A stretch of DNA of 64,000 bases, from assembly GCA_914767715.1 (NCBI GenBank), contig OU612075.1, forward strand, positions 10,538,001 through 10,602,000, in the 5' to 3' direction. Below, piece after piece: positions 10,628-41,381 of this stretch; within the stretch, counting starts at the first letter, position 1; every line of letters starts with the position of its first letter. A program made the position numbers and the translations under genes. Source of the stretch: Membranipora membranacea (lineage: Eukaryota; Bryozoa; Gymnolaemata; Cheilostomatida; Membraniporidae). A model generated the notes under the pieces. It had not been told where the DNA came from. It ran no database searches and saw only the letters and a program-made list of their open reading frames with translations.

Positions 10628-13600
10628 ATGGAGAATATAAACATAGCAGTAACCAGAGATACAGCCTGTGGATTCTGTGGTCTGACATTATATGAGATAC
10701 AGGAACCAAGAGCTCTACTCTGTGGTCACACTCAATGTACTGAGTGTATTCATGTCAACTATCAGAATAAGGAGATTGAGTGTAAGACTTGCAGGTAAGG
10801 CTATTACCCGTGTTGAACCCACAAACGTCGCAATCTAGCGTTCCACTAACGTCGCAATCCAAAAAACGTCGCAACGAAGGGTTTTTAAAACGTCGCAAAC
10901 CCACAAACGTTGCAATTTTTTAAACGTCGCAATAGCTCGAACCCACTAACGTCGCAAATGTCGCAACTCAACAAAAATACGAAGTTGTCTTCTTATTTGA
11001 TGCAATTTGGTGATGATGATATGATTTAGAAGTAGAAAGGAGCATACAAACTGCAAAACACGTTAGGGAATTGAATATCAACATTATATATATTGTGCCA
11101 TGCATAATTGTTGTGTATTTTTCAGGTTATTTGAATCATTTTTTCACTTTCTAGGGTTGTTTATTGTTACCTCAGAATCCATTAACGCTGTCATAAATGG
11201 GTGTTAATCAAGATTTAGCACAAGTAAGGCAAATATCTGCATACATGTCAAGCTTGAAATATACTGTCATGTTTGATATAGGCTATGCTTAAAGTTGTTA
11301 AGAGGCTTTTACACTACTTGAAATACCATAAATATTAAATAATTTATGCATGAATCCCTTTATCTCTTTATGACTTACCCATTATCTACTGAATGAGGAA
11401 TTTTTACATCATCCCCGAGATGCAACTTTATGGTTTTATGATATGGTAATGATGGTATGATAATAAAACCTCAACAGGATACCATAGGAACCATTAGCAT
11501 ACAATAGGATGCGAAATTACACCTTGCATTACAATTGTATTTTCATCACTAGAATTATATGCAGTTTGTAAACTCAAATCCTGGGTTATGGACAAGAGAC
11601 CTTGACAGAGGGTCAATGATAGTGCAGTTGAAAATTTACAGAATTTAATATCGCTTTGTGACCCATCGGCTTATTGTTAATGGCCATGGATATATAATAA
11701 ATGGGTTTCCCTAAAAAATTCAAGTCAAATTATAATTGGCCTTAATATACTTTGGTAATTCCATAGATATGCATTATGGGAACCGTTAACCTCTTAAATT
11801 TTATTGAATTTGTTATTGATACTCTCTGAAAGAGAAATCTTCAAAGTGCCACATCCTGCAAGACCATGGCAAACAGTGGCCTTTCTTGACAAGCATTGCT
11901 GGAAGGAGAGAGGAACCCCTCCGACAAAGCTTGTCAAGACATGGTAAGGGACCAGCAGATGAAATTTTTTGAGATATCGTGATTGGCTTGTTTAGTAATC
12001 AAATCAATTTAAAAAATTTGCAGCTCAACTATGCCTGGGTACCCAAAGACTATTATCCTACCTCTAAAATTTCAACTTACTTTTGCCTATCTAGCCAGCA
12101 AGGTAAGCAGTATCTATCTATTCTACCTATACATACAGTGGGCTGCCTATTCTATCTATTCAGTGGTATGGAGGAGGGTCAATGAATAAAATGAGAAAGA
12201 GCTGAGAAGATCAGATGGTTGTTCATGTGCATCTGTTTGTAATTAAGGTTCATTAATGTTCAACCAGGGAGAATGGATGAACTTTCTACCATACCATTTT
12301 ATATTTCATAAGTGGGATGTAGAAAACATTGCTGACAGCGAACACAGTCTCAAACACATCAGCGACACCATCACAGATCTCTCCATCAAGCATTCCAGTA
12401 ACTTTGTCATCGCTGGAGACTTCAATCATCTCAACATGCATGACATAAGTGAAGTATTCCATTTGACCAATATCGTGAACTTTCCGACACAGAGAAATGC
12501 TTACTTAGACCGTATTTACACCAACATCAATGAGATTAAATCGCTGGTATGTGAGAAGCTTCCTCCGCTAGGAAGTAGTGACCACGACACCGTATATCTA
12601 CCTACAACAGCAGTGACATGCAGAGAATCCGAATATTACTACTCGAGAAAACCCACACCACAAACACGAATAGCGATCCAAGAAGATGTTACGTCCATCA
12701 ACTGGGACACAATCACATCTCTGTCTGATGTGAATCAACAGGCTGAGGCTATTCAACACACTATGACCAATATCGTAGACAAACACTGCCCTAAGAGACG
12801 TTATAAGAAATCCAACAAATCCGCACCCTGGTTTGACAGTTTGGCACGGAAACTAAGAAATGCTAAGAAGAAGTCGTACAGTAAAGGATCCCCTTCATCT
12901 AAGTTTTTCTCACGTCTACTGAAAAAACACCTACGGACAATAAAGAAGAAATGGATCTTCAAGAAACTTGATGATAGAAACCCAAAGACGTGCTGGAATG
13001 TTATCAACACACTCAGAGGCAAACACAAAACTAAGACAAAAGTATGCTACAACCTAAACGGCGAACACCTAAACCAACAGCAGACAGCTGATAGACTCAA
13101 TGACTATTTCTCATCAGTTGACGGAACCCCGACTAGCATAACCCCTGTCTGTTACAGTCGATCAGGTATATAAATGGCTCATAGATATTGACACAAGGAA
13201 GGCTACACATTCACACGACTTCCCATCATGGGTTACACGAATGTGCGCAGACGAGCTTTGCTTTCCTATTGTACTATCATAAACAGCTGTTTTAAATGTG
13301 GTTACTTTCCTGATATTTGGAAGTGTGCAGAGATAGTACCAATCGAAAAAAAGAAGTCTGTTGATACTGAATCAGATTTTAGACCTATTTCCTTGTTATG
13401 GCACCTGGGCAAAATTATTGAAAAAGCTGTTATGCATTTTTATGTTCAGTTTGTTTTACCAACAGTTGATGGAAACCAGTATGCGTATCAGAAAGGCCGA
13501 GGTAAAGTAGATGCAATCTTAGCTGCTATCGATAATTGGACCCAATTATTAGATGAACCAAAGTCAAAATATTTGACAGTCACTTTCCTTGACATATCAA

Positions 13601-16600
13601 AGGCTTTTGACAATATGGACAGAGGTAAACTGTCAGGTATGCTAACGAGGAAGGGTATCAACTATAATCCAGTGCAAATCATCAACAGCTTCCTCACACA
13701 CCGATACCAATCAGTACGCATCGGCAACAATACCAGCCGAACCTTACCAGTTATAAATGGAACACCCCAGGGAACATTGCTAGGTCCTGTCTTCTGGCTT
13801 TTATATGTGGACAGCCTTGAAGTTGAATGTGACATAATAAAATACGCAGATGACCTGACATTAACTGGCCTGCCCGCTAAAACACTAAACCAACAACTGG
13901 ACCTCCAAACCTCTCTAGACACAGTATCGACATGGTGCGATGAGTATAATATGGTGGCTAATGCAAAAAAGTCATCTATTATGCATCTGACTAACAAACA
14001 TGCTCGATACCAACTCCAACCACCAACTCTAAAGCTGAATGGAGAACAAATACCACCGACAACTAAGACTAGATTTCTAGGAATCACTATCGATCAGCAT
14101 CTGTCTTTCGAAGACCATGTCAACTCGATCCTGAAGAACATCAGACTGCTAACCTATACCCTTCTTAACCTCAAACGCTCTGGCGTACCTCAGCGGTTAC
14201 TCACGAGGTTCTACCTTACATGTATACGGCCTCGTATGACATATGGAAGCATAGCATGGTTCTGCATGATGACCGACCAACAGAAGAAACGAGTAATCTA
14301 GCTGGAAAAACTCTCACTGAAAATTATAGCCCCAGGCTGTGACGAGTATAGTGAAAGGACAGCCCTGCTAAACATCATACCACTAGACGAATATATTGAC
14401 TCTATGTGCCATCAACACATCGACAAGATCGAGACACCTGGGCACTGCCTGCATCATTTACTACCTCAACCGAGTGCTCGCAGACCTAGTATACATACAA
14501 CGCGCCTCAACACCAGCTCACGAACTGAATTGAGAGGCAACACTTTACTCATGTGTTACAGCAATGCCGGATGTGTAGATTATAAAGTCTAAGAATTAAT
14601 TTTTTTTTTTTCTGTTTTTATTTTCACGCCCAGGTTGCCTTCCTTACTTATATTGTGATGAAACCACTAAAATTTTTAGAAGATGATTATTGGTTCAGTA
14701 ATAAAGATTATATATACATGGCACATGGTATATAAAAAAAGTTTGACTTTATTTATCTGGGAAATCCAAAGCGTTGCATCATGGGAAGGCTGTGCAATTT
14801 GATGGATTAAGGCCATGTCAGCAAGAGAAAAAAATATAGCACTCAATCCAACTGTGTCAATACCTCTTGACAAGTTCAATCTTTGGCTAAATCAAACATT
14901 AAGGTACATCACAAATTGGTATGTCACTATATCTGCCAGATGGTGATTAGCATCCCTTTTATGACAGCATTAATGGATTCTGAGGTAACAACAAACGACC
15001 CTAGGAAGTGAAAAAAATGATTCAAATAACCTGAGAAATATTCAACAATTATCCATAGCACAATAAATAATGTTGATTTTGTTTGAAGTTTTGTTGAAGT
15101 TTGTATGCTCCTTTCTACTTCTCGCAACATATCATCATCACCAATTTGCATCAAATGAGAAAACAACTTTGTATTTTTGTTGAGTTGCGACATTTGCGAC
15201 GTTAGTAGGTTTGAGCTATTGCGACGTTTAAAAAATTGCAACGTTTGTGGGTTTGCGACGTTATAAAAATCCTTCGTTGCGACGTTTTTTGGATTGCGAC
15301 GTTAGTGGAACGGTAGATTGCGACGTTTTGACGTTTGCGACGTTTGTGGAATCAACAACCCTCCTTCAATGTTGACAACTAACACGGAGGATATCCTCAT
15401 TTTAGCAAATGAGGTTATATTACATAAATGTACCTTGATGAGAGGTGTGTCGCGGAAGCACAGCAAAATGATTTTCGAGCCAACACCTTCTTTCTCATAA
15501 ATCCAGCAATAAGCTTGAATGATGATATTTACAGGGAAACCTTCAAAGACATAGACATCAGAGCACTACCTACAATTCCTGAGCACCTTGTACAGGAGGC
15601 ACTGGCTGATACAGAGTTAGGATTACCGTCAGCAGGAAGAGAATGTAATCGATGTGAGGGTGAGAAAGTGAGGGCTGTGGTCTGCTGTGCTGACTGTAAG
15701 AAAAGGTTCTGTCACCAACATTCTGAGGTAGGAACCCGTCACCCTCAAGTCAGTATAGAAATATGTACGAATTTGTTTGTCTTGTGAAACTCATAATAAC
15801 AACTACGATACCTGACACTCGTTGCTTAGTTGGGTAGCCTAATGGATAAGTTGAATTTTTATATCGGAATGTGGATTTTCATCCTGGTTCTGGTTCTGAG
15901 TTTAAAATAATCACATACCTAAACAAATTAATTATATAATACCTTATAATTCGATGAGATGGTATTATGTATTTATTTATACAGGAGCACTTGTTCCATG
16001 TCAGCGATCATGTACTTCTGCCAATAGAAGACAACCTGACTGAAGAAAGATACGAGATAAAAAGATGTCAAACGCACAAAAAGTTTGCGCTTGATGAGAT
16101 TTGCAGGCATTGCAAAGAGCAGTTTTGTAGCAGATGTGACATTAGGGGAAGATGTGTTGCTTCAAACGCAGAGAGAGATGAAAGTGAGTTTGCTAAGCAA
16201 GGTTGATTTGGAACTAGTAGACATTGATTGTTACCGGTCCTGTTTGATTGATTGTTAATTTTGAGTAGACGCTAGGCCTGGTTATAGGCAAAAATGAAGA
16301 GACACTAACCCCTTTACAGCTTCAGTTTTCTGTTTCTGGTAATAAAGTCCCGTGGGGAAATAAAAACCCTCAGAAACAAAGCTGTACTTTGAGTTGTTAC
16401 ATGCTTTTCATTTTAGGCCAAGGTCATGAGGTTGTCCCACTTAAAGATGTAACCGAAGGAATGAGGGAGAAACTTCGAAAGCTGTCTCAGAATACTTTCG
16501 ACAAAATAAAAAGATGTAGAGACATTGAAAAGTCTGGCTGGAGGTGTCTAGCTGATCTCGAAGCTCATACCAAGAACATCTATCAGGAGATCGATGTAAT

Positions 16601-19107
16601 GGCTGAAAACATGGTGTGTTTTATTTTTATGCCTGATACTAGTCTTAGTGCTCAGACGGCTCCAATATGGGTTAGTGGCACAACATTATCAACCACCCAT
16701 CTCCACCGTGAAAATGGGTGGTTGATAATGTAATGCCACTACTTCGCATTGGAGTCAGAGAACTTAGACTAGTCTGAAACATAGAGATATTACTTGGAAA
16801 GTTGTCATGTCATATCTTGGAAGACAATCCTTTCCATTAGTATATAATTTAAGACTATCGATTTATGCAGTTCGGACAAACCTTGGCCTGTTGTCAATTA
16901 AACAATGAAAAAAATCAAAGATCTCAAAATGGTTTCTAATTACAAAACAAATTAAATGATACCAAATTTTCATCATGGTTTTTTATTCTAAATGCAATTC
17001 GAGATGATTGTCAATGTCTATATGAAGGTTGCAAGAGCAACTTTGAGTTTAAGGCTTTAAAAATCTTGAGTCAATGGGTGCCATTGCCATTGCCATTGCC
17101 ATTTCTTCAACCATTGGCAGATTCAGCGAATCAGAAGAGAAGCAGAAGACCTGAAGACAGAATTTACAGACCATCTTAATGAGTCAACTGAGAAAGTAGG
17201 CAAGTTTTCTGAGGAGATGCTGCTGAACACCACAGTTTTAGATGACCTGTATATCCACGGTTCTCATCTAGCAGATAGAAGAGCAGACCAGCAGCTTCTA
17301 GAAGAGTTTGATGAGGTGTTTTCAAACCTTACACAAACAAATGACAACATGGAGTATGAGACAAAGGTTGCCCTCCAAACACCTTATCTGCATACAGGTA
17401 ATAAATTTGCATATGGGTCTATTATATATTATTGTAATGGAGTTGACTAATATATATATATATATATATATACCTATATGTATAATTGTGTATATACTAA
17501 TACCTGCACATGCGGGGCAATGACCACAATGACCAAGGGGTAAATAACCGAAACGAAGGAAATATTAGATGGCATAAAGCGATAGAGCTGGATTAACGGA
17601 TTAAACTCATATTATGTTCCTTCCTGTTTCAGTGTTTGGGTCTAGATCCTTTAGGAGTATGGAGGTAGCTCAGTTAGTTAGAGCGCCGTCTTAAAAACGC
17701 AAGTGATGAAGGTCGTGGGTTCGAATCCTACTGAAGTCTATCATCTACTGGGGTTAGGTTGGCCCCCAGGTGTGCTCCAACCTGCCTGCAAACTGAGAGC
17801 AAAAATGGCGCAGCCTTGCCATTAGGCTAAGGCAAATATTTTGCTGCCCATGCTTTGGGTTGTGGCGTGTGGTTTGACATCCGATTTTAATTAACGTTTT
17901 ACTCAACCTTTAGGAATACGTAGACATGACCAGGGAGATTGGAACAAGTTGGTGGAAAAAAATTAGAACTAGAAACTAAAAGTACAAATGGATTGTAGCA
18001 CGCTGTCCACATGTGACTGTAGGGATAAGCTTACACATGTTTATAATGATAGTAGTCGAAAACTATCTAATCATCAGTTCGATTGTTATTTCCAGGTCCA
18101 GGCTCAGCGAATTTGAATGGAAAAATGGGATTCCTACCAACAGCCATAACACATGTAAAGCAAGAGAAAACAGGTGATGGCTGCTTTGGGGTTAGCTGGA
18201 CGCACGACGACAGAATACTTTGCACCACAGATGAAGGGCTCGAGATTAGAGACCCTGTTGACTTGAAACTACAGAAGCAACACCTAGATAATAACTACGA
18301 ATATTCCTCTGCTACTCTTTGTGGAAGCAAACTGTTCACAAAGGGCGTTTCAATTGACTTAGAGAAATACATAACCTTTTCCGGATCACTCGAGCAGCCT
18401 ACTCGTTCTATATTACACAGTGAAGTCACCGTTGGACCAGCCTTTCCTACCCAAGTGTCAGCAAACAAAAACCATGTAGCAACCATTGACCGAGCCAATA
18501 ACATGTTAAAATTCTTTTCAACTATTAATGAAGAGCACCAGTTTGACATTCAGCTAACAAATGGACAGTACCCATATGGAGTTCATCTCACATCTGATGC
18601 AGCACTAGTGACTTTCTATGAAGAAGGGAAGCTGTGTAAATATGCTCTGTCACCTTCACCAGACCCAATCTGGACATATGAAGGGCTGGAGGAGCCTTCA
18701 GGGGTGACAACAGATGAGTCAGGCTTCATCTATGTAGCAAGTGCGTGTGAATCCACAATCAACATCATCTCAGCTGAAGGTAAGTATTATTAGCAACCCG
18801 GACAGCGTTAATTTAGTTTTAGTTGATTATTTTATTTGAATATATTTAGAGTTCAAATCTTAAATTTAGATGTGGCCTAATATGAATTTATTTGAGATGT
18901 TTAAACACCGCTTTAGTTTGTAACTAAAAAATATCACTATACAAAGTTTGGTTACCACTTGTAGGTGAGAAGATAAGAGAGCTGACTCATGAGAAGCTAC
19001 AGGAGTGTATCGATGATGATTTCTGGATCTTTGACATCACTGTGAGAGATGGGAAGATGCTGTTAGCATGTGAGCATGAGGGTGTTATGTTCTTCAATAT
19101 GGGCTAG
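10628..19107 (+). CDS. TRIM-like RING/B-box/coiled-coil/propeller gene, copy B
   Basis: Seven coding exons, about 625 aa: 10628-10794 (RING), 15535-15727 (B-box 1), 15985-16201 (B-box 2), 16417-16613 and 17121-17397 (coiled coil), 18096-18779 (propeller), 18965-19107 (end of propeller, stop). The RING has the complete C3HC4 pattern C-x2-C-x14-C-x-H-x2-C-x2-C-x11-C-x2-C. The start is the first ATG in the RING exon; an acceptor TTTTAATTTTAG about 30 bp upstream suggests a 5' UTR intron. Intron 1 is 4.7 kb because it contains an inverted-repeat element with a LINE; the TRIM exons on both sides stay open and all later introns are normal, so splicing may still work. Predicted intracellular E3 ubiquitin ligase by family. 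Confidence 0.85.
10820..11215 (+). repeat. left terminal inverted repeat of the element
   Basis: Reverse complement of 14940-15348 with scattered differences. The outer 150 bp is dense in AACGTCGCAA decamers; the inner part reads on through GGAGCATACAAACT and CAGGTTATTTGAATCATTTTT. The outermost 18 bp seen on the right arm is missing here. Confidence 0.85.
11216..12255. other. interior of the TIR element, left of the LINE
   Basis: AT-rich, no recognised gene. The first 100-250 bp still pairs weakly with 14700-14940, so the inverted repeats were once longer. A 68-codon ORF at 11979-12185 has no support. Confidence 0.5.
12256..14592 (+). pseudogene. non-LTR retrotransposon (LINE) ORF2, truncated and broken
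   Basis: The frame from 12256 to about 13150 contains the C-terminal part of an APE-type endonuclease, with GDFN and the SDHD motif, then a Lys-rich linker. The frame from 13228 to 14301 is reverse transcriptase with FRPISL, FLDISKAFDNMD, NGTPQGTLLGP and the catalytic KYADDLTL. At least two frameshifts lie between 13150 and 13260. One in-frame TAG is at 14299-14301, after which the same frame continues to 14592. The 5' endonuclease half is missing and a T-rich tract follows the 3' end. The motifs fit the Jockey/CR1-like group; the clade is not certain. Confidence 0.85.
14593..14939. other. interior of the TIR element, right of the LINE
   Basis: T-rich LINE tail followed by AT-rich DNA that pairs weakly with 11216-11450. 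No gene seen. Confidence 0.5.
14940..15348 (-). repeat. right terminal inverted repeat of the element
   Basis: Inverted partner of 10820-11215. It contains seven exact GCGACGTT cores plus variants in its outer 170 bp. Confidence 0.85.
16638..16774. mobile_element. foldback MITE in coiled-coil intron of copy B
   Basis: A long hairpin whose inner arms ACATTATCAACCACCCAT and ATGGGTGGTTGATAATGT pair perfectly around a short loop. Outer arms ACTAGTCTTAGTGCTCAGAC and their partner near 16755-16774 pair with a few mismatches. The end shares TAGTCTAAGTGCTCAGACTCC with the hairpin at 28241. It is also at the same place in copy E (53187-53322) but not in A, C or D. Confidence 0.75.
17449..17472. repeat. 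(TA)n microsatellite in copy B intron
   Basis: TA tract in the same intron position as in the other paralogs. Confidence 0.9.
17660..17906 (+). mobile_element. tRNA-derived SINE in copy B intron
   Basis: A-box-like GGTAGCTCAGTTAGTTAGAG and B-box-like GGTTCGAATCC head, then the shared SINE body. It is flanked by CCTTTAGGAGTA (17648-17659) and CCTTTAGGAATA (17907-17918), the target-site duplication. Confidence 0.85.
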
Positions 19108-23341: not shown

Positions 23342-26300
23342 ATGGCGACCGCAGTAGGGGTCACAGAACCGGCGGTAACGCAGAATATAAAGATAACAGT
23401 AACCAGAGATACAGCCTGTGGATTCTGTGGTCTGACATTATATGAGATACAGGAACCAAGAGCTCTACTCTGTGGTCACACTCAATGTACTGAGTGTATT
23501 CATGTCAACTACCAGAATAAGGAGATAGAGTGTAAGACTTGCAGGTAAGGCTATTCGAGTCAGTGGCTCCAAAAAGTTCTGTGTTGGAATAGTTTGGTGG
23601 TGCCAAGGCGCTTGTTTTTTATTTGATATTGTCAGCGCTAGGCATAACAATATCCTTCACTTAGAGTAGGTTTTGTTGCAGATGCATTGCACAGAGGAAG
23701 TCCAGCAAATGATCCTCACACAACAGCATCTTAAGTCTAAGCGAATGATATTTTTATAGGGAGACTTTCAAAGATATAGACATCAGAGCACTACCCACAA
23801 TTCCTGAGCACCTTGTACAGGAAGCGCTGGCTGATGCAGAGTTGGGATTACAGTCAGCAGGAAGAGAATGTAATCGATGTGGGGATGAGAAAGTGAAGGC
23901 TGTGATCTGCTGTGCTGACTGTAAGAAAAGGTTCTGTCACCAACATGCTGAGGTAGGGACCCATCAACGGCATATCAGTTAAAAACATATTCATTCCTAT
24001 ATGCCTTATGAAGCTCATATAAAAAACTACGATACCTGATACTAGTTGGGTTGCATTATGGATAGAGTTCATTATAATTTTCTTTGGAATAAAGAATATG
24101 TAACATGATTTAACATACTGAATTCAATGGTAATAAATCTCAAAACCCAACTATATGCAATACCCCCTAAGTCGATAACACACATATATATGATCATAGA
24201 TTTCTATTTGCAGGAACACTTGTTCCATGTCAGCGATCATGTACTTCTGCCGATAGAAGACAACCTGACACCAGAAAGATACGAGGTAGAAAGATGTCAA
24301 ACACACAAAAAGCATGTCCTTGAGGAGATTTGTAAAAACTGTAAGAAGCAGTTCTGCAAGAGATGTGATTCTAAGGTAGCATGTTCAGCCTTAAATCAGA
24401 GGAGTGATTCGGCTGCAGCCCTATATCAAGGTTGGTGTGGAATGAGTCCATGAGTTAATTGCAGAGTAAAAGGAAGAGACAACGGAAAGCGGTATCTATA
24501 ATAATTTGAACAGCATCACTTTGAATACAGAGACCAGGTTAAATCCACTGGTCGAGGTTGGTAAGGCTAATGTTTGATCGGAATGCAGTGCCACTATCAG
24601 CGCAAAAGTTTCAGTTTTCCAATTTAGTATAATAGTCTAATAGGCTGACCAAATCGGTCGTAGGAAAATAGTAGAGACTTTTAATCTTTTGGTACAAGGT
24701 TCAATGTCTGCTTTGCTATTCAATTTGGCAGATCCTCCTTATCAGCAATAAATATCGAGATAGGGTTTGTTTGATCACCCAAAATGCAATGAAAATATCT
24801 GGGGAATAAACCTCTGGAAATAACAACTATGTTGTTCTTGTAATGTTAGGCATGTGCCATGAGGTTGTCCCACTTAAAGATGTGACCGAAGAAATGAGGG
24901 AGAAACTACGAAAGCTGTCACAGAATATTTTCGACAAAATAAAAAGATGTGGAGACATTGAAAAGTCTAGCTGGAGGCGTTTAGATGAACTGGAAACTCA
25001 TATAGATAACATTTATAATGAGATAGATGAAATTGCTGAAAATCTGGTGAGTTGTTTTTTCATGCAAAAATGTAAATTGAAAAGTCGTTTTTTCATGATA
25101 CAAGAGCAAGCAACTCTTTCCTATTTTAGGAGAGGATTTAAGACTAGGTTTATTAATCATTGTATGCAGCTTATGCGTTTGGTCATCAGAGCAACAATGG
25201 TGTTTTTGCTAAATTAATTCGATCCAAGAGGTTGTTTGTCAATATGACTTGAAAATTGAACAACCCTGAGTTTATGAAGCTCAAGTTTGATCCAAATTGC
25301 CGCGATTCCAGTTGTTCTTCTGGTGAGCTGCCAACCTTTTGCCAGCAACCCAAACTCCGATGAAGGCAAATTGGATCATTTTGATCTATAGTATATTGGT
25401 AAAATCACACTACATTGTCTATTGATTTCTTTATACATATTTTGGTTTCTATCACCGACTACAGATTAAGCAAATCAAAAGAGAAGCTGAGGACCTGAAA
25501 ACAGAATTTAAAGACCATCTTAACAAGTCGACAGAAATGGTAGGCGAGTTTTCTGAGGAATTGCTGCTGAACACCACAGTTCTGGATGACCTGTATATCT
25601 ATGGAACTCATTTAGCAGACAGAAGACCAGACGAGCAGCTACTGGAAGAATTTGATAAGGTATCTTCAAACCTTACACAGGCTAATGACAACATGGAGTA
25701 TCAGACAAAGGTCGCCCTCAAAACACCTTATCTGCATCAAGGTAATAAGTTTGCATACAGGTATATTATATATTATTATAATGGAGTTGACTAATATATA
25801 TATATATATAAATATATGTTTATACTAATACCTGCACATACGGGGCAATGACCACAATGACCAAGGGGTAAATAACCGAAACGAAGGAAATATTAGATGG
25901 CATAAAGCGATAGAGCTGGATTAATGGATTAAACTGATATTATGTTCCTTCCTGTTTTAGTGATTGGGTCTAAATCCTTTAGGAGTAGGAGGTAGCTCAG
26001 TTGGTGAGAGCGCCGTCTTCAACACGCAAGTGATGAAGGTCGTGGGTTCGAATCACACTGCAGTCTATTGACTACTGGGGTTAGGTTGGCCCCAAGGTGT
26101 GCTCCGACCTGCCTGCAAACTGAGAGCAAAACTGGCGCAGCCACTGCAGCCTGGCCATTAAGGCAAAAAAATATTTCGCCGCCTATGCTTCGGGATGTGG
26201 GTGTGATATGACATCCGAATTTAATCAACCTTTTAATCAACCCTTAGGAATATGTACACATGACCAAGGAAATTGGAACCAGTTTGTGAAAAAAGTTAGA

Positions 26301-27436
26301 ACTAGAAACTAAAAGTACAAATGGATTGTAGCATGCTGTCCACATGTGACTGTAGGGATAAGCTTATGCATGTTTATAATGATAGTAGTCGAAAACTATC
26401 TAATCACCAGTTTGATTTTTATTTTCCAGGTCCAGGCTCAGTGAATTTGAATGGAGAAATGGTATTCCTACCAACAGCCATAACACATGTAAAGCAAGAG
26501 AAAACAGGTGATTGCTGCATTGGGGTTAGCTGGACGCACAACGACAGAATTCTGTGCGCCACAGATGAAGGGCTCGAGATTAGAGACCCTGTTGACCTCA
26601 AATTACAAAAACAACATCAAGATAGTAACCACATTTATTCTTCAGCTATTCTTTGTGGAAGCAAACTGTTCACTATGGCCGTTTCATCTGACTTGAAGAA
26701 ACACATAACCTTTTCTGGCTCACTCGAGCAACCTACTCGTTCTATATTACACAGTGATGTCACTGTTGGACCAGCTCTTCCTACCCAAGTGTCAGCAAAC
26801 AAAAACCATGTAGCAAACATTGACCACGCCAATAACATGTTAAAACTCTTTTCAACTATTAATGAAGAGCACCAGTTTGACATTCAGCTGACAGAAGGAC
26901 GCGACCCATATGGAGTTCATCTCACATCTGATGCAGCACTAGTGACATTCTTAGAGGAAGGGAAGCTGTGTAAATATGCTCTGTCACCATCACCAGACCC
27001 AATCTGGACATATGAAGGACTCGTGGGACCTACAGGAGTAACAACAGATGAGTCAGGCTTCATCTATGTAACAAGTTGGGATGAGCCCAGAATCTACATC
27101 ATCTCAACTGAAGGTAAGTATTATTAGCAACCCAGACAGCCTCAATTTAGTTTTACTTCATTATTTTATATGAATATATTTAGAGGTCAAACCTTAAATT
27201 TGTATGTGGCCTAATATCAATTTATTTGAGATGTTTAAACACCAGTTTGTAACTCAAAAATATCACTATACAAAGTTCGGTTACCACTTGTAGGTGAGAA
27301 GATAAGAGAGCTGACTCACAAGAAGCTACAGGAGTGTATCGATGAGGATGCCGAGATCTATGACATCGCTGTGAGAGATGGGAAGATGGTGTTAGCATGT
27401 GAGCAGGAGGGTGTTATGCTCTTCAATATGAGCTAG
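23342..27436 (+). CDS. TRIM-like RING/B-box/coiled-coil/propeller gene, copy C
   Basis: Seven coding exons, 637 aa: 23342-23544, 23760-23952, 24214-24430, 24850-25046, 25465-25741, 26430-27113, 27294-27436. The RING uses C26, C29, C44, H46, C49, C52, C64 and C67. B-box 1 is about residues 105-134, with its last His from the next exon. B-box 2 is about 160-195, the coiled coil about 205-362 and the propeller 364-637. The propeller reads as six blades, each with a short hydrophobic strand followed by a variable turn. The start ATG lies 10 bp after GGTCTTCTTTTAG, a likely acceptor of a 5' UTR intron. The propeller is compared with the paralogs in the findings. This is the cleanest reference copy in the window. 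E3 ligase role is inferred from the family. Confidence 0.88.
25289..25377. mobile_element. short palindromic MITE, copy C intron
   Basis: Same element as at 1011-1105, with ends GATCCAAATTGCC and GGCAAATTGGATC, in the intron between the coiled-coil exons. Confidence 0.5.
25792..25811. repeat. (TA)n microsatellite in copy C intron
   Basis: Short TA tract in the conserved position. Confidence 0.85.
25988..26240 (+). mobile_element. tRNA-derived SINE in copy C intron (most complete copy)
   Basis: Full body from GGAGGTAGCTCAGTTGGTGA to the ATCAACCTTTTAATCAA tail. It is flanked by CCTTTAGGAGTA (25976-25987) and CCCTTAGGAATA (26241-26252). The head has tRNA-like A and B boxes but does not fold as a normal-length tRNA, so it is not a tRNA gene. 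Confidence 0.85.
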
Positions 27437-29000: not shown

Positions 29001-29318
29001 GCATACAGTAAATATAAATCTCAACAATCTCTAGCTCAGGCTAACCAAAGGGCTCAACTCGCTCTGAATTCAGCTCGTACCGCTATCGATAAACTGGAAG
29101 CCATCCAGTTCCCAGTTGAGCATTCATATAATGTCAATCCTGTAATCTTGTATGCAGAGAATGCTTTAGTCTCATGTCAACAATCATTTCTGTCAATAAC
29201 TGATTATACATCTGATTTTGAAAATCTGATTTCTAAGTTAGGATCACTGTTACTAGAAATTCAGTGCAGAGTGCCCAAGCCAAATAATTTGGCTAACCTA
29301 GTGTCTGATATTTTTTGA
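29001..29318 (+). pseudogene. BEL/Pao gag N-terminal fragment
   Basis: An open frame from the truncated left end to TGA at 29316-29318, with a predicted helical segment (ANQRAQLALNSARTAIDKLE). A one-base slip in the T run at 29311-29316 separates it from the next frame, which continues the same protein. Wild-type gag would start upstream of the truncation. Confidence 0.7.
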
Positions 29319-31695
29319 GACTCCAAGTATTGTCTCTGCGCGAAATGCCAACTCAAATCAACTATCGCAGCAGCAAGGGCCAACGCGAGGTCCAATAGCT
29401 GTTCAATCTAGTCATGCTGGGCTTTCCCATAGTGCTGTGAACGGTGGCGTTATCGGCGCTGTTGCGGGGTCCTCTGGGGGGCGGGCAGCTGGCAATCTAT
29501 CACACTTTTCTATAGTATCGGTGTACAATAACCAAACTCGACACAACACACTTCCTCTTAGCTCCACCCAGTTAGGTCATACCAATGTGCATAGTAGTAG
29601 TAGTGATGGTCACAGATCCAGTCCGTGTTCACATAGGAAATCTAGATTTAAGGAATCCCCTCTACCCACATTTAACGGTGACCGCTTGAAATGGGCTGAA
29701 TTCAAAGCTATATGGTGCAGGTATGGGGCCGAGGAAATAGATAATGATGTAGACCGAGCTTATGCTTTAAAGCAATGTTTAAAAGATGAGGCGTATAGGA
29801 TAGTGGAATCAATAACAGCAAATCAACCTGATGCGTATCCTAATATGTGGCATAAACTTGATCTTGTGTACAGTGATGTTAGTCAGGGTGTTCAACATGC
29901 ACATTATCAACTAGAAAAGCTAAAACCAGTAAAAGAAGGTGATTATGCAGCGTTAGTCAAATTAGTGAATGCTATCGAAGTGGTGTATAGCCAGCTTGGT
30001 GCATTGGACCAGCTTTCATCCATTACCTTACCAACTGTTGATAACTTAGCTGATTTATTACCCATCACTGTAAAGCGAGATTGGTTAAAGGCTTATAGAG
30101 TGCTAATGGTAGAAGATAAAATCCATCCTTTCCCTGAGTTCATGCGATTTATTGAAAGTGAGCGAGACACTGCTTACAGGGAGAGTGCTCGGAAATCTAT
30201 CAAGTCCAGTAGTAGTAGCGGTAAATCATTCCAGTGTGATTCATCATCATCATTACTAAAGTGTAGCACTGTATTAGATACAAGTGATAACTCTGATTCT
30301 GAATCGTCTCATATCAAGTCTGATACAATGTATACTAGTAATGAATATCAATGTGTGATTCATAATGATACGAAGGTTGGTCACGTTACGGCAAACTGTC
30401 CTGATTTTGTCAAGCTTGAGAGACGAGTTAAATTTGATGTATTGAAAGGAGCTAGAGTGTGTTTCCGATGCTTTGGTAATCATTCTCGTCACTCATGTAA
30501 AGTAAATGATAAATGCTCTCTATGTGGATTCACGAATCATCATGTACTTTTATGCAAGTCTGTACAGAATAAAGCAAGTATTGCAAATCAAATCACAACC
30601 TCGGATTGTAACGCTGCCGATAGTCGACAAAAGTCTGTTTTCGCCATCAACCATGTAAGGAGCGCTCGCTGTCCTCAGGAGGCTACACTCTTCTATGACG
30701 GCGGATCAAATACAACATACATACTAAATGATGCTGTCAAACGTCGGAAAGCTAGGAAAATCAGACCAGTGACTCTTGATGTTACAACTATGGGAGGTAA
30801 TGTGAAGCAATTTCAGACCAACTTGTACGAGGTAGATCTGCTTACTACAGAAAAGAAGACTTACACACTGGAAGCATTTGGAATGGAAACGCTAACGGGA
30901 CCTGTTAGGCGGTTGGACATGGAAGTGATACAACAACTCTTTCCTCTATTCAACGTGAAACTGTTGGAGCGTAGGAATTCTCAAGTGGACATACTGGTGG
31001 GTATAAACCATTTAGGAGCCCATCCGAAGAAGGAGGTAGCAAGATGTGGAGAGGACTTAGGCATATTCGAAGGAAAGTTGGGATTCTGCATACAAGGAAC
31101 ACACCCAGCCCTTTGTGAAGGCACAGTCGTATCTAATCACATCAAAGCAATAGTCAATGTAGCTGAAACTCGAGTGGATACCAGAAAGAAAGTTGGTGAT
31201 ATAGTACTGAACAAAGTTGTAGCACCATTCATAGAAGGAGAACAACTAGGATTAGAAGTTTTGCCAAAGTGTGGTGCCTGTAAGTGTGGCAAGTGCCCCA
31301 CAGTAGGACACACATACTCCTTTCAGGAACAGCAAGAGCTTGATGTGATCAGAAGTAATCTGATTTATGATAAGGAAGGTCAAAGATGGGTGACTAAATA
31401 CCCATGGATCGAGGACCCCTCTACATTACCTGATAACTATGGATCTGCTCTCGCTACACTCCGAAACACAGAGAAAAGGCTAAAAAAGGATCCTGAGTGG
31501 GCTAAAATCTATGATTCTCAGATTCAAGATATGATAGACAGGAATGTGGCAAGAAAACTCAGCAAGAAGGAAATGGAAGAATGGACAGGACCGCTTTTCT
31601 ACATATCTCACTTGGCGGTTGAAAATCCCAAGTCAAAGAGTACCCCAGTGCGCATTGTCTTCAATTCTTCCCAAAAGTTCAAAGGTTCTCTCTAA
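29317..31695 (+). pseudogene. BEL/Pao gag-protease-RT N-terminal part
   Basis: The frame opens right after the slip; the first ATG is at 29437. It encodes a DUF1759-like gag region (LPTFNGDRLKWAEFKAIW), two zinc-knuckle-like motifs (CFRCFGNHSRHSC, CSLCGFTNHHVLLC), an aspartic protease with FYDGGSNTTYI as the likely active site, and the start of reverse transcriptase (VRIVFNSS). It ends in a frameshift at about 31690. Confidence 0.8.
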
Positions 31696-31700
31696 ATGGT

Positions 31701-32123
31701 ATGCTGGCTAAAGGACCAGATGCCTATCTCAACAACATTCTTGGCATTCTTCTGCGGTGGAGGGAAAACTATGTAGGAATAGCTGCGGACATACGCAAAA
31801 TGTACAATTCAATATTTGTGGAAGAAATTGAACAACACTGTCACAGGTTCCTGTGGCGCAATATGGATGACCGAGAACCGGATGTGTACGTCATTATGAG
31901 GGTCAACATGGGGGACAAGCCGGCAGGAGCTATCAGTGCGGAGGCTCTATACAAAACTGCTTCAATGTTCAGGGAGACTAATCCAGATGTTGCTCAGTTG
32001 CTATTAGGATCTACATACCTTGATGATATAGTTGATTCTGTAGAGGATAAGTCAACGGCAGGTAAGGTAAGGCAGGATTCAAAACCAAAGGTTGGCTACT
32101 CAGTGGTGAATCAGAGGTATTGA
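31701..32123 (+). pseudogene. BEL/Pao reverse transcriptase middle part
   Basis: It contains the palm segments ADIRKMYNSI and the catalytic YLDD (TYLDDIVDSV). It continues 31695 after a small frameshift. It ends at a second frameshift near 32070, where about ten codons also seem to be lost compared with typical elements. Confidence 0.75.
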
Positions 32124-34573
32124 CAGATCTCCGTACGGTATCGAACCAAGCACCAAACCCATCAACAACCAAAGTATTAGGAGTGGAATGGGTTTCAGCA
32201 AGTGATGAGATCACTTATTCTATGGATCAACAAACTCAGCTCTTCACTGAAGTTATGGTAACTGACAGGTTGACAAGAAGAAGGGCACTGGAGCGTGTGA
32301 TGAAGATTTACGACCCACTAGGAATACTCTCCCCCTTTACACTAAGGGCCAAGATATATCTACGAGAAACATGGTCCGAGAAGCTAGGATGGGACGAAGT
32401 TATGAGTACAGATCTTCAAATGAAATGGAAGCTATTCTTTGATCAGATGGAGAACGTTTCATCACTGCGTTACAACCGATGTCTGAAACCCATCGATGCA
32501 AGCTCAAACGATCCGAAGCTGATCATATTTTCGGATGGGAGTGATGTTGCATACGGAGCTGTGGCTTATGTTAGGTGGCAACTGGAGAATGGAAAGTTTT
32601 GGAGCACGCTTGTGATGGCAAAGAGTCGAATAGCCCCCATGAAGAAGATCTCAACTCCTCAAATGGAGCTAAATGGAGCTGTTGTATCAAAGAGGATTCG
32701 CCAGGTCATAGAAAAGGAAATGAGAGTGAGGTTCGAGGAAGTGATTCACCTGGTAGATTCTGTAACGGTTCTAGGTATGCTGCATAAAATCTCGACTCAG
32801 TTTAAAATATATGAAGGAGTTCGATTGGGTGAGATTCAGGCTGCAACAAATGGCAACATGGACAGTTGGTACTGGATAGAGGGAAAGTCTAACATCGCAG
32901 ACTACTTAACCAGACCTAAAGATCTCCATGAGATAAATCAAGATAGCCGATGGTGGAAAGGCCCTGAGTTTCTTGAGACACCAATGGACTCTTGGGCAAT
33001 AAAGTCTAAGGTTGAAAACCCAGAGTCATTGCCAGGAGAGAAGGCCTCCACACATGCTGCTGAAACTAAAATCAACCAAAATTCGGATCTGGTCGATTAT
33101 TCCTCATTTAGTTCCCCAAAGAAGCTACTGTGGACAGTAGCCCGCGTATTGGATATCTGTCGTAGGAGATTTAAGGGAGGTTGTAAGATGGAGAATATAG
33201 ATCCACAAGTCTTCCAAGATGCAAAGATATTGCTACTGAGAGATGTCCAACGAAACTTAGGAGAAATGAAACAGTACAAACAACTAAAACCAGTCCGTAA
33301 TGACAAGGATTTGTGGGTCTTAGGAGGCCGGCTATCATCCTTCAATCCGCTAGCTCAAAATCCTACAGATGGGGCCCAAGTGCTTTTGCCTACCAATCAC
33401 CCGTACACACGTATGCTCATGAGACAAGCTCACGTACTAAGCGGACATGGTGGTCATGATTCAACTCTAGCTCGATTCAGATGGCTCTTCTGGACACCTC
33501 AAGGATCGAAGATAGCCTCCGCGGTAAAGAGAGAGTGCCAAATGTGTAAGAAGAGGGATGTAAAGCTGATTCAGCAGCATATGGGAAATCTCCCCACCGA
33601 AAGACTCTCTCCTTCGCCCCCCTTCAACAGAGTGATGCTGGATATATTTGGACCATACTTAGTGCGTGGAGAGGTCCAAAAGAGAATATCACAGAAGGCC
33701 TATGGTGTGATTTTCACAGATCTGTATTCTCGGGCTGACCATATCGAGCCTGTGTACGGATATGATACTGCTTCCTTCATGTTGGCACTCCTACGGTTCA
33801 CTAGTATTAGAGGTTGGCCGGCTAAGATATACTCGGATCCTGGAAGTCAATTGGTAGCTGCAGAACGGGAGCTCAGTCAAGCATGGAGTTCTATGGATAA
33901 GGCGGAGATTCACCGGACATCTACAGAAAACGGAACGACCTGGACACTCAGTCCTGCAGACAGTCCATGGAGGCAGGGGACAGTTGAGGCGCTGATAAAG
34001 TCAACGAAACGATGCTTTTCTTTTTCTATGTGCAATCATCGTCTTTCTCCATCTGAGTTCAATACAGTGTGTTACCAAGTGTCTAACACGTTGAACGAAA
34101 GACCAATAGGTAGGTGTGGTGGACATGATTCAGATATAAGTGTGTTAACACCAAATCTCTTGCTACTGGGTAGGACAGGTACTAGCAATCCAGGTAATTT
34201 ATATGAAACTAATAGTTACAGATCTAGTTTAGTTAGTTCAGTCTATAATGTATTCTGGAAGCGATGGTGTGAGTTGTATGCACCAACAATCATCAGACAG
34301 TATAAGTGGTTTGAATCGTCGCCAAATTTAAGACCCGATGATATAGTTGTTGTATGTGATCAAAACGCATTGAAATCAAATCATTATTTGGCTAGAGTAA
34401 AGGAGGTTTTCCCAAGCTGTGATGGAAAAGTGAGGAAAGTGTCTTTGGCTTACAAAAACTTCCAAGTTGGGGAAAAAGTACACCAATACTATGGGGCTAA
34501 GGATACAATCATATATCGAAGTGTCCAAAAATTGGCTTTGCTGGCGCCCGCCCCTGAGTGGTCAATGCGGTAG
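32120..34573 (+). pseudogene. BEL/Pao RT end, RNase H, integrase and DUF5641-like domain
   Basis: A long open frame of 817 codons. RNase H begins near IIFSDGSDVAYGA. The integrase zinc-binding part has HVLSGHGGH and CQMC. The catalytic core has MLDIFGP, SDPGSQ and EALIKS as the D, D and E. The C-terminal part (RWCELYAPTIIRQYKW, LRPDDIVVV) matches the DUF5641-type end of BEL/Pao. This part is uninterrupted, so the insertion is not very old. Confidence 0.85.
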
Positions 34574-36753: not shown

Positions 36754-39700
36754 ATGGCTACAGCAGAAGGGGTCACAGAACCTGCGGTAATGGAGAATTT
36801 AAAGGTAGCAGTAACCAGAGATACAGCCTGTGGATTCTGTGGTCTGACATTATATGAGATACAGGAACCAAGAGCTCTACCCTGTGGTCACACTCAATGT
36901 ACCAAGTGTATCCATGTCAGCTATCAGAACAAGGAGATAGAGTGCAAAGTCTGCAGGTATAGCTATTAGAGTCATAACCTCCAACATAATTTTTGTGTTG
37001 GAATAGTTTGGTGGTGCCAAGGTGCTTGTTTTTTATTTGATATTGTCATCGCTAGGCATAACAATATCCTTCACTTAGAGTAGGTTTTGTTGCAGATGCA
37101 TTGCGCAGAGGAAGTCCAGCAAATGATCCTCACACAACAGCATCTAAAGTCTAAACCAATGATATATGTATAGGGAAACCTTCAAAGATATAGACATCAG
37201 AGCACTACCCACAATTCCTGAGCACCTTGTACAGGAAGCGCTGGCTGATACAGAATTAGGATTACCATCAGTAGGAAGAGAATGCAATCGATGTGAGGAT
37301 GAGAAAGTGAAAGCTGTTGTCTGCTGTGCTGACTGTAAGAAAAGGTTCTGTCACCAACATGCTGAGGTAGGAACCCATCACCCTGAAGTCAGTATAGAAA
37401 TATGTGCATTTTTTTGTGAAACTCATAAAAGCAACTACGATACCTGACAACTGTTACCTAGCTGGGTCGCCAAATGGATAAATCATATAAACAAATCTTC
37501 TTCTGAATACGAATTTTCAATCTGTACATCATTCTGAGTTTAAAAGTATTACATACCTGAACAAAGTAATTTTATAATTCTCGATGACTTAGATAGTATA
37601 CTGTACTATTTATACAGGAGCACTTGTTCCATTGTGGCGATCATGCACTTCTGCCGATAGAAGACAACCTGACACCAGAAAGATACGAAGTAGAAAGATG
37701 TAAGACTCACAAGAAGCATGTGCTTGATGAGATTTGTAAGAACTGTATGAAGCAGTTCTGTAGGAGGTGTGATTCTAAGGTAGCATGTTCAGCCTTAAAT
37801 CAGAGCAGTGATCGGGCTGCAGCCCTTAATCAAGGTTGGTGTAGAATGAGTCCATGAGTTAATTGCAGAGTAAAAGGAAGAGACAACGGAAAACAGTATT
37901 GGTAAATTTGAAAATAACTACTTGTGAGAAACCATCACTTTGATTACAGAGACCAGGTTAAATTCACTGGCCATTTTTGGTCAGGCTAATGTTTGGTTGA
38001 ATGAAGAGCCACTATCCGAGCAAAAATTTCAAAATTTTTTTATTATGTATCAATCTAATAGGATAACCAAATAGGAAAATAGTAGAGACTTTTAATCTTA
38101 GAGTTCAAGGTTCAATGCCAGATCCTTATCAGCAAAATTTAAAATATGGAGATAGGGTTCGTTTGAACACCCAAAATGCAATGCAAAATATCCGGGGAAT
38201 AAACCTCTGGAAATAATAGCTATCCTTTCTGTTGTTCTTGTAATTTTAGGCATGTGCCATGAGGTTGTCCCACTCAAAGATGTGACCAAAGAAATGAGGG
38301 AGAAACTACGACAGCTGTCACAGAACATTTTAGACAAACTAAAAAGATGTAGAGACATTGAAAAGTCTAGCCGGAGGCGTTTAGCTGAACTGGAAACTCA
38401 TATAGATAACATTAATAATCAGATAGATGAAAGGGCTGAAAATCTGGTGAGTTGTTTTTTGATGCAAAGGAGTAAATTGGAATTCGTCTTTTCATGATAC
38501 AAGAGCAAGCAACTCTCTCCTATTATAGGTTATTGATCATTGTATGTAGCTCATGCGTTTGGTCATCAGAGCAACAATGGTGTTTTTGCTAAATGAATTT
38601 ATCCAAGAGGGTGTTGTCAATATGACTTGAAAATTGAACAACCCTGAGTTTAGTAGATCATTTTCGATCCAATTTGCCGGCATTCCAGTTGTTCGTACTC
38701 TTCAGGTGAGCTGCCAACCTTTTGCCAGCAACCCAAACTCCGATGAAGGCAAATTGGATCATTTTGATTTAGAGTATATTGGTAAAATCACACTACATTG
38801 TCTATTGATTTCTTTATACATATTTTGGTTTCTATCACTGACTACAGATTCAGCAAATCAAAAGAGAAGCTGAGGACCTGAAAACAGAATTTAAAGACCA
38901 TCTTAACAAGTCGACAGAAATGGTAGGCGAGTTTTCTGATGAAATGCTGCTGAACACCACAGTTCTGGATGACCTGTATATCTATGGAACTCATTTAGCA
39001 GACAGAAGAGCAGACGAACAGCTACTCGAAGAGTTTGATGAGGTATCTTCAAACCTTACACAAACAAATGACAACATGGAGTATGAGACAAAGGTTGCCC
39101 TCAAAACACCTTATCTGCATACAGGTAATAAGTTTGCATGCAGGTATATTATATATAATTATAATGGAGTTGACTAATATATATATATATATATATATAT
39201 GTATATGCTAATACCAGCACATGCGGGGCAATGACCACAATGACCAAGGGGTAAATAACCGAAACGAAGGATATATTAGATGGCATAAAGCGATAGAGCT
39301 GGATTAATGGATTTAACTGATATTATGTTCCTTCCTGTTTCAGTGTTTGGGTCTAAATCCTTTAGGAGTAGGAGGTAGCTCAGTTGGTAAGAGCGCCATC
39401 TTCAACACGCAAGTGATGAAGGTCATATGTTCGAATCCCACTGCAGTCTATCATCTACTGGGTTTAGGTTGGCCCCAAGGTGTGCTCCGACCTGCCTGCA
39501 AACTGAGAACAAAAATGGCTCAGACATTGCATTGCTTCTGGATGTGGCGTGTGATATGTCATCCGAAATTAATCAACCTTTTAATCAGACCAGGGAAATT
39601 GGAACCAGTTTGCGAAAAAAGTTAGAGCTAGAAACTAAAAGTACAAATGGATTGTAGCACGCTGTCCACATGTGACTGTAGGGATAAGCTTACACAAGTT

Positions 39701-40776
39701 TATAATGATAGTAGTTGAAAACTATCCAATCACCAGTTTGATTGTTATTCTCCAGGTCCAGGCTCAGTGAATTTGAATGGAGAAATCGGATTCCTACCAA
39801 CAGCCATAACACATGTAAAGCAAGAGAAAACAGATGAGGACTGCATTGGGGTGAGCTGGACGCACGACGACAGAATACTCTGCGCCACACAATTCGGCCT
39901 TGAGATAAGAGACCCTGTTAACCTTAAATTACAAAAGCAACACCTAGGTAATAACTACTTGTTTTCCTCTGCTACTCTTTGTGGAAGCAAACTGTTTATA
40001 AAGGGCATTTCATCTGGCTACGAGAAACACATAACCTTTTCAGGATCACTCGAGCAGCCTACTCGTTCTATATTAAACAGTGAAGTCACTGTTGCAACAT
40101 CCATTCTTACCCATCTGTCAGCAAACAAAAACCACGTAGTGACCATTGACTCTACCAATAACATGTTGAAACTCTTTTCAACTATTAATGAAGAGCACCA
40201 GTTTGACATTCAGCTGACAGAAGGACAGAACCCATATGGAGTTCATCTCACATCTGATGCGGTACTAGTGACATTCTTAGAAGAAGGAAAGGTGTGTAAA
40301 TATGCTCTGTCACCATCACCAGATCCAATCTGGACATATGAAGGACTGGGAACCCCTACTACAGGAGTAACAACAGATGAGTCAGGCTTTATCTATGTAG
40401 CAAGTGCTGACATGCATAGAATCTACATCATCTCAGCTGAAGGTAAGTATTATTAGCAACCCAGACAGCGTTAATTTAGTTTTACTTGATTGATTTTTGT
40501 GAACTTATTTAGAGGTCGAATTTTGTTGTGGCCTACTATGAGTTGATCTTGGATGTTGTAAAGCACCACTTTAGTTTATAACTTTGAGGATCCTCAAACA
40601 CTTTACTATACCTAGTTTGGTTATCACTTGTAGGTGAGAAGATAAAAGAGCTGACTCACGAGAAGCTACAGGAGTGTTTCGATAAAGATGCTTGGATCTC
40701 AGATATTGCTGTGAGAGATGGGAAGATGGTGTTAGCTTGTCATGAAGAGGGTGCCATGCTCTTCAATATGAGCTAG
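36754..40776 (+). CDS. TRIM-like RING/B-box/coiled-coil/propeller gene, copy D
   Basis: Seven coding exons, 638 aa: 36754-36956, 37174-37366, 37618-37834, 38250-38446, 38848-39124, 39756-40442, 40634-40776. The RING is complete (CGFC, LPCGHTQCTKC, ECKVC) with Pro before the third Cys as in typical RINGs. B-boxes and coiled coil are as in the other copies. The propeller exon has one extra codon (GTPTTGV instead of VGPTGV type) shared with A. From the B-box 2 exon onward it is nearly identical to copy A, including introns, SINE and MITE. The N-terminus MATAEGVTEPAV resembles copy C (MATAVGVTEPAV), so D and C share their 5' part. Predicted E3 ligase by family. Confidence 0.88.
38666..38760. mobile_element. 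short palindromic MITE, copy D intron
   Basis: Duplicate of 1011-1105 with at most one change seen (CTCCGATG instead of CTCTGATG). Confidence 0.5.
39177..39200. repeat. (TA)n microsatellite in copy D intron
   Basis: TA tract equal in position and almost equal in length to that in copy A. Confidence 0.9.
39371..39587 (+). mobile_element. tRNA-derived SINE in copy D intron
   Basis: Same internally deleted form as in copy A, with the right target duplication lost. This shared deletion links A and D. Confidence 0.8.
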
Positions 40777-41381
40777 TTAAAGAGATTAACTAGATACAGA
40801 CTGTCAGCAGTGCTAGCACTTGTTTATCCACCAATATGTCAACAACTACTCAAGCTATGGACCCAGAAACAATATTTTGTGTGATTGAGATGTGTGATCA
40901 GCTACGCCAACAATGTTGTATACAAAGTGGAAACCATTTTGACATGAAAAATTTCATTGACTTCCTTTGATTTTAAACATGATGTAATGAGTAGTTGCAA
41001 TGCATATTAATAGCCCCTCCCCCTTCATATCCCATTATAATGTAGCATTGCTTTTCACCTCCATAAAATTTGATGGCAATCAAGGTATCGAATATTTCTT
41101 CTGAAGCGAACTGATTATGACTTCGTCGTTTTCCAGATGTGATTGGTGGAGCCACATGTTAAGGTAAGAGAATATGGTATTTAACATTTATGTTTCATAA
41201 AACTTTTGTGACTTTTGCTTGTGAGTATACTGGTTTGGCCAACCACGTAACTTTGATGTGGCGAGACTATATATATCAACCCTAATTCAGCCCTAAAAAT
41301 AAATGTATAAGACAATCAATGCATTGATTCAATTGCTGTCTGTTTATAGTAATGAAATGGCCACATTCATGCATAGCCTAC

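Follow-up and report, generated by a model that had tools for sequence, protein, structure and literature searches.

An array of TRIM-NHL genes in the bryozoan Membranipora membranacea varies mainly on one predicted face of the propeller

RESULTS

Five TRIM genes in the window

The stretch of DNA analysed here (the window) comprises 64,000 nucleotides of the bryozoan Membranipora membranacea (assembly GCA_914767715.1, contig OU612075.1, here C11, positions 10538001-10602000). The genome has 339 Mb in 18 contigs, and all genome-wide counts refer to it. The window contains five TRIM genes on the plus strand, designated A to E, of which A has its 5′ end cut off. They form part of a tandem array whose replacements are concentrated on one predicted face, the top face, of a C-terminal propeller. 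In the complete copies B, C, D and E the exons follow the order RING, BB1, BB2, CC1, CC2, NHL1, NHL2, and the spliced frames are open over 626, 638, 639 and 624 codons, respectively, including the stop.

Copy C (23342-27436) consists of the exons RING 23342-23544, BB1 23760-23952, BB2 24214-24430, CC1 24850-25046, CC2 25465-25741, NHL1 26430-27113 and NHL2 27294-27436. Copy B (10628-19107) has RING at 10628-10794, BB1 at 15535-15727, BB2 at 15985-16201, CC1 at 16417-16613, CC2 at 17121-17397 and the NHL exons at 18096-18779 and 18965-19107. The seven exons of copy D (36754-40776) lie at 36754-36956, 37174-37366, 37618-37834, 38250-38446, 38848-39124, 39756-40442 and 40634-40776, those of copy E (51694-55648) at 51694-51860, 52080-52272, 52530-52746, 52966-53162, 53669-53945, 54643-55326 and 55512-55648. 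Copy A (1-3121), cut by the start of the window, comprises the end of BB2 (1-179), CC1 (595-791), CC2 (1193-1469), NHL1 (2101-2787) and NHL2 (2979-3121).

A preliminary description of this DNA, made by a model from the letters and a list of open reading frames, had given each propeller as a single exon. Each range turned out to hold two exons and an intron. In copy C the first propeller exon encodes the d strand of blade 6 and then blades 1-5 to the end of strand c5; the intron (27114-27293, 180 nt) falls between strands c5 and d5, and the second exon encodes strand d5 and blade 6 with its DA6 and BC6 loops. This NHL1-NHL2 intron is absent from two outside records of related proteins, P0006 and P0020. 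P0006 reads across both the CC2-NHL1 and the NHL1-NHL2 borders without introns and P0020 across NHL1-NHL2, in agreement with the models; both look like products of spliced transcripts. The CC2-NHL1 intron of C contains a tRNA-like stretch (25990-26060) that looks like a short interspersed element, and similar translated stretches were seen by eye in the same intron of B, D and E.

Domain composition

The zinc ligands of a C3HC4 RING could be read in the models of B, C and D. In a sequence search the query, some of whose exon borders were wrong, matched solved RING chains of TRIM56, TRIM5 and TRIM21, TRIM56 (5jw7_B) scoring best (E 0.0033). The Pfam zf-RING_UBOX score was below its cut-off (19.1 vs 25.2 bits). 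The cysteine and histidine patterns of two B-boxes were read in exons BB1 and BB2; a Pfam scan, whose query contained a few erroneous residues between BB1 and BB2, listed no B-box match. The CC1 and CC2 exons are helical and charged in appearance.

The predictions gave the C-terminal domain the fold of a six-bladed NHL propeller and not that of B30.2 (PRY-SPRY). AlphaFold2 modelled exon 1 of C with a mean predicted local distance difference test score (pLDDT) of 89.7, and the full six-blade relative P0006 with a pLDDT of 87.9 and a predicted template modelling score of 0.83; strand d6 is visible in the six-blade model alone, not in that of C exon 1. The six blades are unlike one another in sequence. 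The Pfam NHL score of the propeller was under its cut-off, and full-length C gave no filamin, SPRY, NACHT or WD40 match in Pfam. By their parts and predicted fold, genes A-E are best classed as TRIM-NHL proteins (TRIM class VII) with sub-threshold Pfam scores. Their sequences suggest that the family functions as ubiquitin ligases.

Variable positions lie on one predicted face

The preliminary description had proposed that the copies differ in two loops of each blade, DA and BC, that these share one face, and that the genes form a family with a diversifying recognition surface, to be checked by structure prediction, codon-based site tests and a genome search. All 48 loop strings that it quoted were found verbatim in the models of B, C, D or E. 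It compared B to E; the variation is real. A fifth copy, A (2101-3121), has the same propeller as D, and the window holds four distinct propellers.

At least one replacement was present in all 12 top loops (BC4 has a single variable site), whereas four of the 11 bottom loops had one each. The top and bottom loops differed in variability at p = 8e-10 (Fisher's test; tests on positions treat positions as independent), and none of 256 circular shifts of the variability profile matched the observed contrast. When the strand borders were instead taken from the model of C exon 1 itself, variable positions numbered 28 of 41 in top and 3 of 42 in bottom loops (p = 4e-9). In the predicted structure most variable loop sites mapped to one face; a spread over both faces was not seen. 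The strands had been called nearly invariant, which is too strong, as 33 of 143 strand residues vary: 21 of 65 in the half adjoining the top face, 9 of 65 in the half away from it and 3 of 13 at mid-strand.

The top loops are acidic, with 3-7 Lys and Arg vs 14-19 Asp and Glu, counted in the loops only, without the strand residues that line the channel. Because of this acidity RNA appears less likely as a ligand than protein.

Four propeller arrays in the genome

The genome search found many further members. The propeller exon of C had at least 129 matches, a lower bound with 150 of 183 candidates scored. Array 1 (C11 10.53-10.92 Mb), to which the window belongs, contains 34 propeller loci by count in the match table, all on the plus strand and some broken. 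The same interval has 34 of the 68 genome-wide matches to the RING exon, four of them with an internal stop and two partial. Of 30 array-1 loci fetched, 25 gave both propeller exons ungapped, and merging identical propellers left 22. Loci L020 and L027-L030, partial or with stops, were left out of all array-1 counts; L005 (internal stop) and L019 (no stop codon) were left out of the codon models and kept for entropy and loop-variant counts. Array 2 lies at C11 5.63-6.06 Mb, and two more arrays on C5 (chromosome 5) at 12.1-14.6 and 21.0-21.5 Mb. For these three we used exon 1 only and transferred the structural classes by alignment, the C5 copies being about 34-39% identical to C. In array 2 the two copies checked are both preceded by RING, BB1, BB2, CC1 and CC2 exons.

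Among the 22 propellers of array 1 the mean entropy was 0.95 in DA, 1.40 in BC, 0.24 in AB and 0.20 in CD loops, and 0.39 in strands (top over bottom, p = 7e-11); 58 of 66 top and 19 of 47 bottom positions varied (p 1e-7). The corresponding counts were 30/49 vs 15/42 in array 2 (p 0.021), 32/46 vs 13/43 in C5:12 Mb (p 3e-4) and 32/43 vs 8/44 in C5:21 Mb (p 1e-7). The one-face bias is present in all four arrays. Relatives from metagenomes were also collected: the propeller part of the full-length protein gave no matches, exon 1 alone 21 and an alignment 41. One of them, P0041, was dropped as a lactonase-like propeller. In the 40 relatives taken together with the four window copies the top loops were more variable overall (p 2e-4). 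No relative came from a scan of viral contigs.

Could the copies be haplotypes of a few genes that the assembly failed to collapse? A and D have one and the same propeller, and so do C and L002. Such an assembly artefact is nevertheless extremely improbable: there are about 34 ordered loci on one contig, L003-L026 (73-93% protein identity to C) are too diverged for alleles, different insertions stand beside the window copies, and three further arrays exist elsewhere.

Exchange between copies

The segment with copy A (1-5762) is 98.8% identical in DNA to that with copy D (37656-43436); for B and E the value is 91.9%. The propellers of A (2101-3121) and D (39756-40776) agree at every coding site, synonymous ones included, although the surrounding segments are about 1.2% apart (8% for B and E). 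We read this identity as a very recent duplication or conversion. The identical twin of the C propeller, L002, is 336 kb away.

Copy C groups with A and D in CC1, CC2 and the intron between them, that intron being 7% apart vs more than 50% from B and E. Its NHL1-NHL2 intron and 3′ flank group with those of B and E (7-12% vs 18-28% from A and D). C is a chimera, its 5′ part nearest A/D and its 3′ part nearest B/E. Informative sites in conflict with the main grouping made up 19 of 31 in the propeller exons vs 8 of 35 in the flanks (p 0.002), and were clustered in runs (p 0.0004). A test of the pairwise homoplasy index (PHI) type gave p 0.002 for the array. Variants per loop in the array numbered 6-18 for top and 2-5 for bottom loops, and for 19 of 66 loop pairs two variants of each loop were present in every one of the four possible combinations. 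Loop variants appear to have been reassorted between copies.

The conflicting sites, their runs and the PHI-type result would also be expected if the array were a gene-conversion patchwork of old diverged copies, without selection on the loops, and the synonymous rate is raised in the top loops too (1.33 v 0.80 and 0.93). Conversion alone, however, would not pick out the loops of one face in four arrays, and recombination simulated without selection in array 1 fell far short of the observed signal (see below). We regard this explanation as quite improbable.

Selection on the top loops

Codon models were fitted with our own implementation (F3x4 frequencies), not PAML or HyPhy. For the array sets FastTree topologies were used and kappa was fixed from the one-ratio fit. 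Recombination simulations covered the window copies and array 1 only. For the four window copies, M2a was favoured over M1a by twice the log-likelihood difference (2dL) of 44.5. A partition with a single synonymous rate (dS) gave a ratio of nonsynonymous to synonymous rates (dN/dS, omega) of 1.73 in top loops (p 0.002) and 0.30 elsewhere, and the two other topologies agreed. In the N-terminal half of the window copies 2dL was 5.4 (p 0.07), and 60 recombination simulations reached a maximum of 8.1.

In array 1 (20 unique intact copies) 2dL was 143.7, with 9% of sites at omega 4.8. Among 17 sites with posterior >0.9, 15 were in top loops (9 BC, 6 DA) and two in strands a2 and a6. When each class had its own dS, omega was 1.35 in top loops (p 0.027), 0.27 in bottom loops and 0.51 in the rest. 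None of 100 M1a simulations with segment-wise trees reached the observed 2dL; their maximum was 38.6, and all stayed below 39. The CC2 exon (16 unique copies) gave 2dL 0.0 and omega 0.45. In array 2, C5:12 Mb and C5:21 Mb 2dL was 112, 267 and 125, and top loops held 7 of 11, 13 of 18 and 11 of 18 selected sites, the remainder being mostly in strands. Own-dS omega of the top loops was 1.43 (p 0.09) in C5:12 Mb and highest, 3.19 (p 0.001), in C5:21 Mb, a set of seven distant copies (L058-L064).

As a neutral yardstick we used introns and flanks. Between B, C and E the top loops differed by 0.19-0.21 per base, the flanking introns by 0.03-0.10 and the 3′ flanks by 0.09-0.12. In pairs with D the top loops (0.29-0.31) exceeded the NHL1-NHL2 intron (0.17-0.19) and were close to the 3′ flank (0.27-0.29). 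Over 190 array pairs the means were 0.233 for top loops, 0.177 for the NHL1-NHL2 intron and 0.116 for the upstream intron; the top loops exceeded the former in 140 and the latter in 164 pairs.

A number of results weigh against a face diversified by selection. Some of them are what relaxed constraint would give, with the top loops drifting freely and the bottom loops and strands held by folding or coiled-coil contact. Pairwise NG86 omega over the window top loops was 0.95 (bootstrap 0.63-1.54); with their own dS these loops had omega 1.18 (p 0.53), and those of array 2 had 0.70, below 1 at p 0.03. Over the array pairs the 3′ flank (0.274) was more divergent than the top loops, which exceeded it in just 75 of 190 pairs; part of the flank divergence may be misaligned unrelated sequence. 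In addition, the selected-class omega of the four-copy M2a fit ran to its upper bound, and 5 of 100 dN=dS simulations reached the array-1 value of 1.35. Array 2 shows no variation in BC3 and C5:12 Mb none in DA2, and AB4, a bottom loop, is variable in the two C5 arrays (mean entropy 0.70 and 0.85). The face bias reached p<0.05 in three of ten metagenome clusters other than the window's own. Strand omega was 1.09 and 1.37 in the C5 arrays, with 5 and 6 of 18 selected sites each; because strands are also selected there, the signal is less confined to the face. RING, B-box, CC1 and CC2 exons were found in none of the four upstream flanks of C5 copies checked (for C5:21 Mb, no RING in two stretches), and the nearest listed RING match genome-wide is weak and lies outside the arrays (C5:21.67 Mb). 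The C5 genes may carry a different N-terminus. The RING of copy E (51694-51860) reads CGHTHVTEC, vs CGHTQCTEC in B and C, and so departs from C3HC4 by one zinc cysteine. Because of this loss E may be a non-catalytic member, perhaps dominant-negative or a decoy.

Relaxed constraint as the whole explanation is unlikely. Relaxation cannot carry loops past the neutral rate, yet the top loops outpace the flanking introns in the B/C/E pairs and both introns in most array pairs; the M2a excess is far beyond the recombination nulls, and the C5:21 Mb top loops stand well above 1 with their own dS. A site subset, richest in top loops, is strongly selected, and loop averages range from below to well above 1.

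Purely neutral or purifying evolution was not what the site tests found, and in array 1 positive selection fell mainly in the top loops. The diversifying recognition surface of the preliminary description is borne out in its one-face bias, further members and positive selection; its mean top-loop dN/dS is borderline in array 1 and below 1 in array 2. The selection signal is concentrated on the face in array 1 and less confined to it in the C5 arrays with their selected strand sites.

Other features of the window

The first intron of B contains a reverse-transcriptase-bearing insertion (10823-15328) with inverted repeats of about 390 bp and 90% identity (10823-11210, 14944-15328); the same intron of E has 219 nt. 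Between C and D (29302-34573) there are frames of a BEL/Pao-type long terminal repeat retroelement (Pfam DUF1759, Peptidase_A17, DUF5641, Integrase_H2C2), and between D and E (47528-48942) two overlapping reverse-transcriptase frames (RVT_1, the first below the Pfam cut-off). A 25-bp minisatellite with the unit CGATTACATGCCCAGCGCCTCTCAC occupies 43742-44272 and adjoins a TA-rich run. An open frame at 62780-63322 has 66-bp tandem repeats in which H, Q, T and D are abundant; it gave no Pfam match.

DISCUSSION

The replacements concentrated on the predicted top face probably mark the target-binding surface of TRIM-NHL ubiquitin ligases, diversified by selection for new targets. The gene models, the copy number, the one-face bias, the excess of replacement at a subset of sites and the reassortment of loops have direct support. 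On the evidence given with each, a haplotype artefact, mere relaxation and recombination alone were rejected. In the mechanism that we propose, tandem duplication and gene conversion would supply copies and reshuffle loops, every copy retaining a near-constant frame and bottom face. The coiled coil would dimerise, and the top face of each copy would bind a different, probably protein, ligand, the array supplying different specificities. The RING end would then ubiquitinate the bound ligand or signal.

TRIM56 is a single human gene, not an array, and antiviral activity has been reported for it. Its RING scored best by sequence among solved chains, and it has an NHL-like propeller (PMC9634614). 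The genes share with TRIM2, TRIM3, TRIM32, TRIM71/LIN-41, Brat, Mei-P26 and Thin a RING and a six-bladed NHL propeller, together with putative B-boxes and a putative coiled-coil region. Among human TRIM-NHL members, too, differences are greatest around the top opening and the loops that connect the blades (PMC9634614). The genes named are single and have been described as conserved within each orthologous group, whereas here the copies number in the tens, lie in tandem and show repeated replacement on the top face. Ours also differ in scoring below the Pfam NHL cut-off and in having no filamin match in Pfam, and their top loops are acidic, whereas a positively charged face has been described for TRIM71.

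The finTRIMs of teleost fish and primate TRIM5-alpha likewise combine a TRIM frame with a C-terminal recognition domain whose loops were positively selected after duplication (PMC2657112). Their domain is a B30.2/SPRY beta-sandwich, ours a propeller in which every blade has variable loops. The family works like finTRIMs, by expansion and positive selection in recognition loops, but without B30.2, and is not a finTRIM. In fungal WD40 NLRs (HET-D, HET-E and HET-R of Podospora) positive selection acts on residues at the surface with which a propeller interacts, and family members exchange sequence (PMC4986451). Those proteins have near-identical internal WD repeats; ours are TRIM genes with six unlike NHL blades, and exchange takes place between paralogs. 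By analogy with finTRIMs and TRIM5-alpha (PMC2657112) and with fungal WD40 NLRs (PMC4986451), immunity would be the likeliest selective pressure, and proteins of viruses, intracellular microbes or parasites the likeliest ligands.

The face might instead diversify for endogenous targets, such as self RNAs, developmental or allorecognition proteins or transposon products. Those named TRIM-NHL relatives whose ligands are known use this face to bind RNA (PMC9634614), and retroelements lie inside the array. We find this alternative rather unlikely, as duplicated TRIM arrays with positively selected recognition loops are tied to immunity in finTRIMs (PMC2657112) and the acidic top loops seem ill suited to RNA. 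We put forward tentatively a more specific proposal: a germline-encoded intracellular recognition repertoire, in which one constant propeller frame presents twelve variable loops on one face and gene conversion shuffles the loop variants, as cassettes, among the tandem TRIM-NHL copies. In this way an animal without antibodies would keep making new ubiquitin-tagging receptors from a domain that has been regarded as conserved and RNA-binding.

TRIMs with NHL domains are listed as an animal subfamily, and tandem expansion of animal TRIMs as such has been noted (PMC3503706). A 2008 survey distinguished two groups of TRIMs: group 1, highly conserved and found in invertebrates, has C-terminal domains of various kinds, and group 2, which invertebrates lack, has a fast-evolving SPRY and is linked to innate immunity; within group 1 one expansion in worm and fly was noted (PMC2533329). 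By exclusion, NHL types belong to group 1. A literature search of open-licence papers gave, among the matches listed, no study of positive selection in NHL-type TRIM arrays, which is weak evidence of novelty.

With an array of the NHL type in which one binding face is duplicated and diversified, the division between group 1 and group 2 breaks down. If the interpretation is true, propellers could serve as an animal counterpart of variable-loop receptors, as WD40 propellers do in fungal NLRs. The analysis names the sites at which specificity can be swapped and tested.
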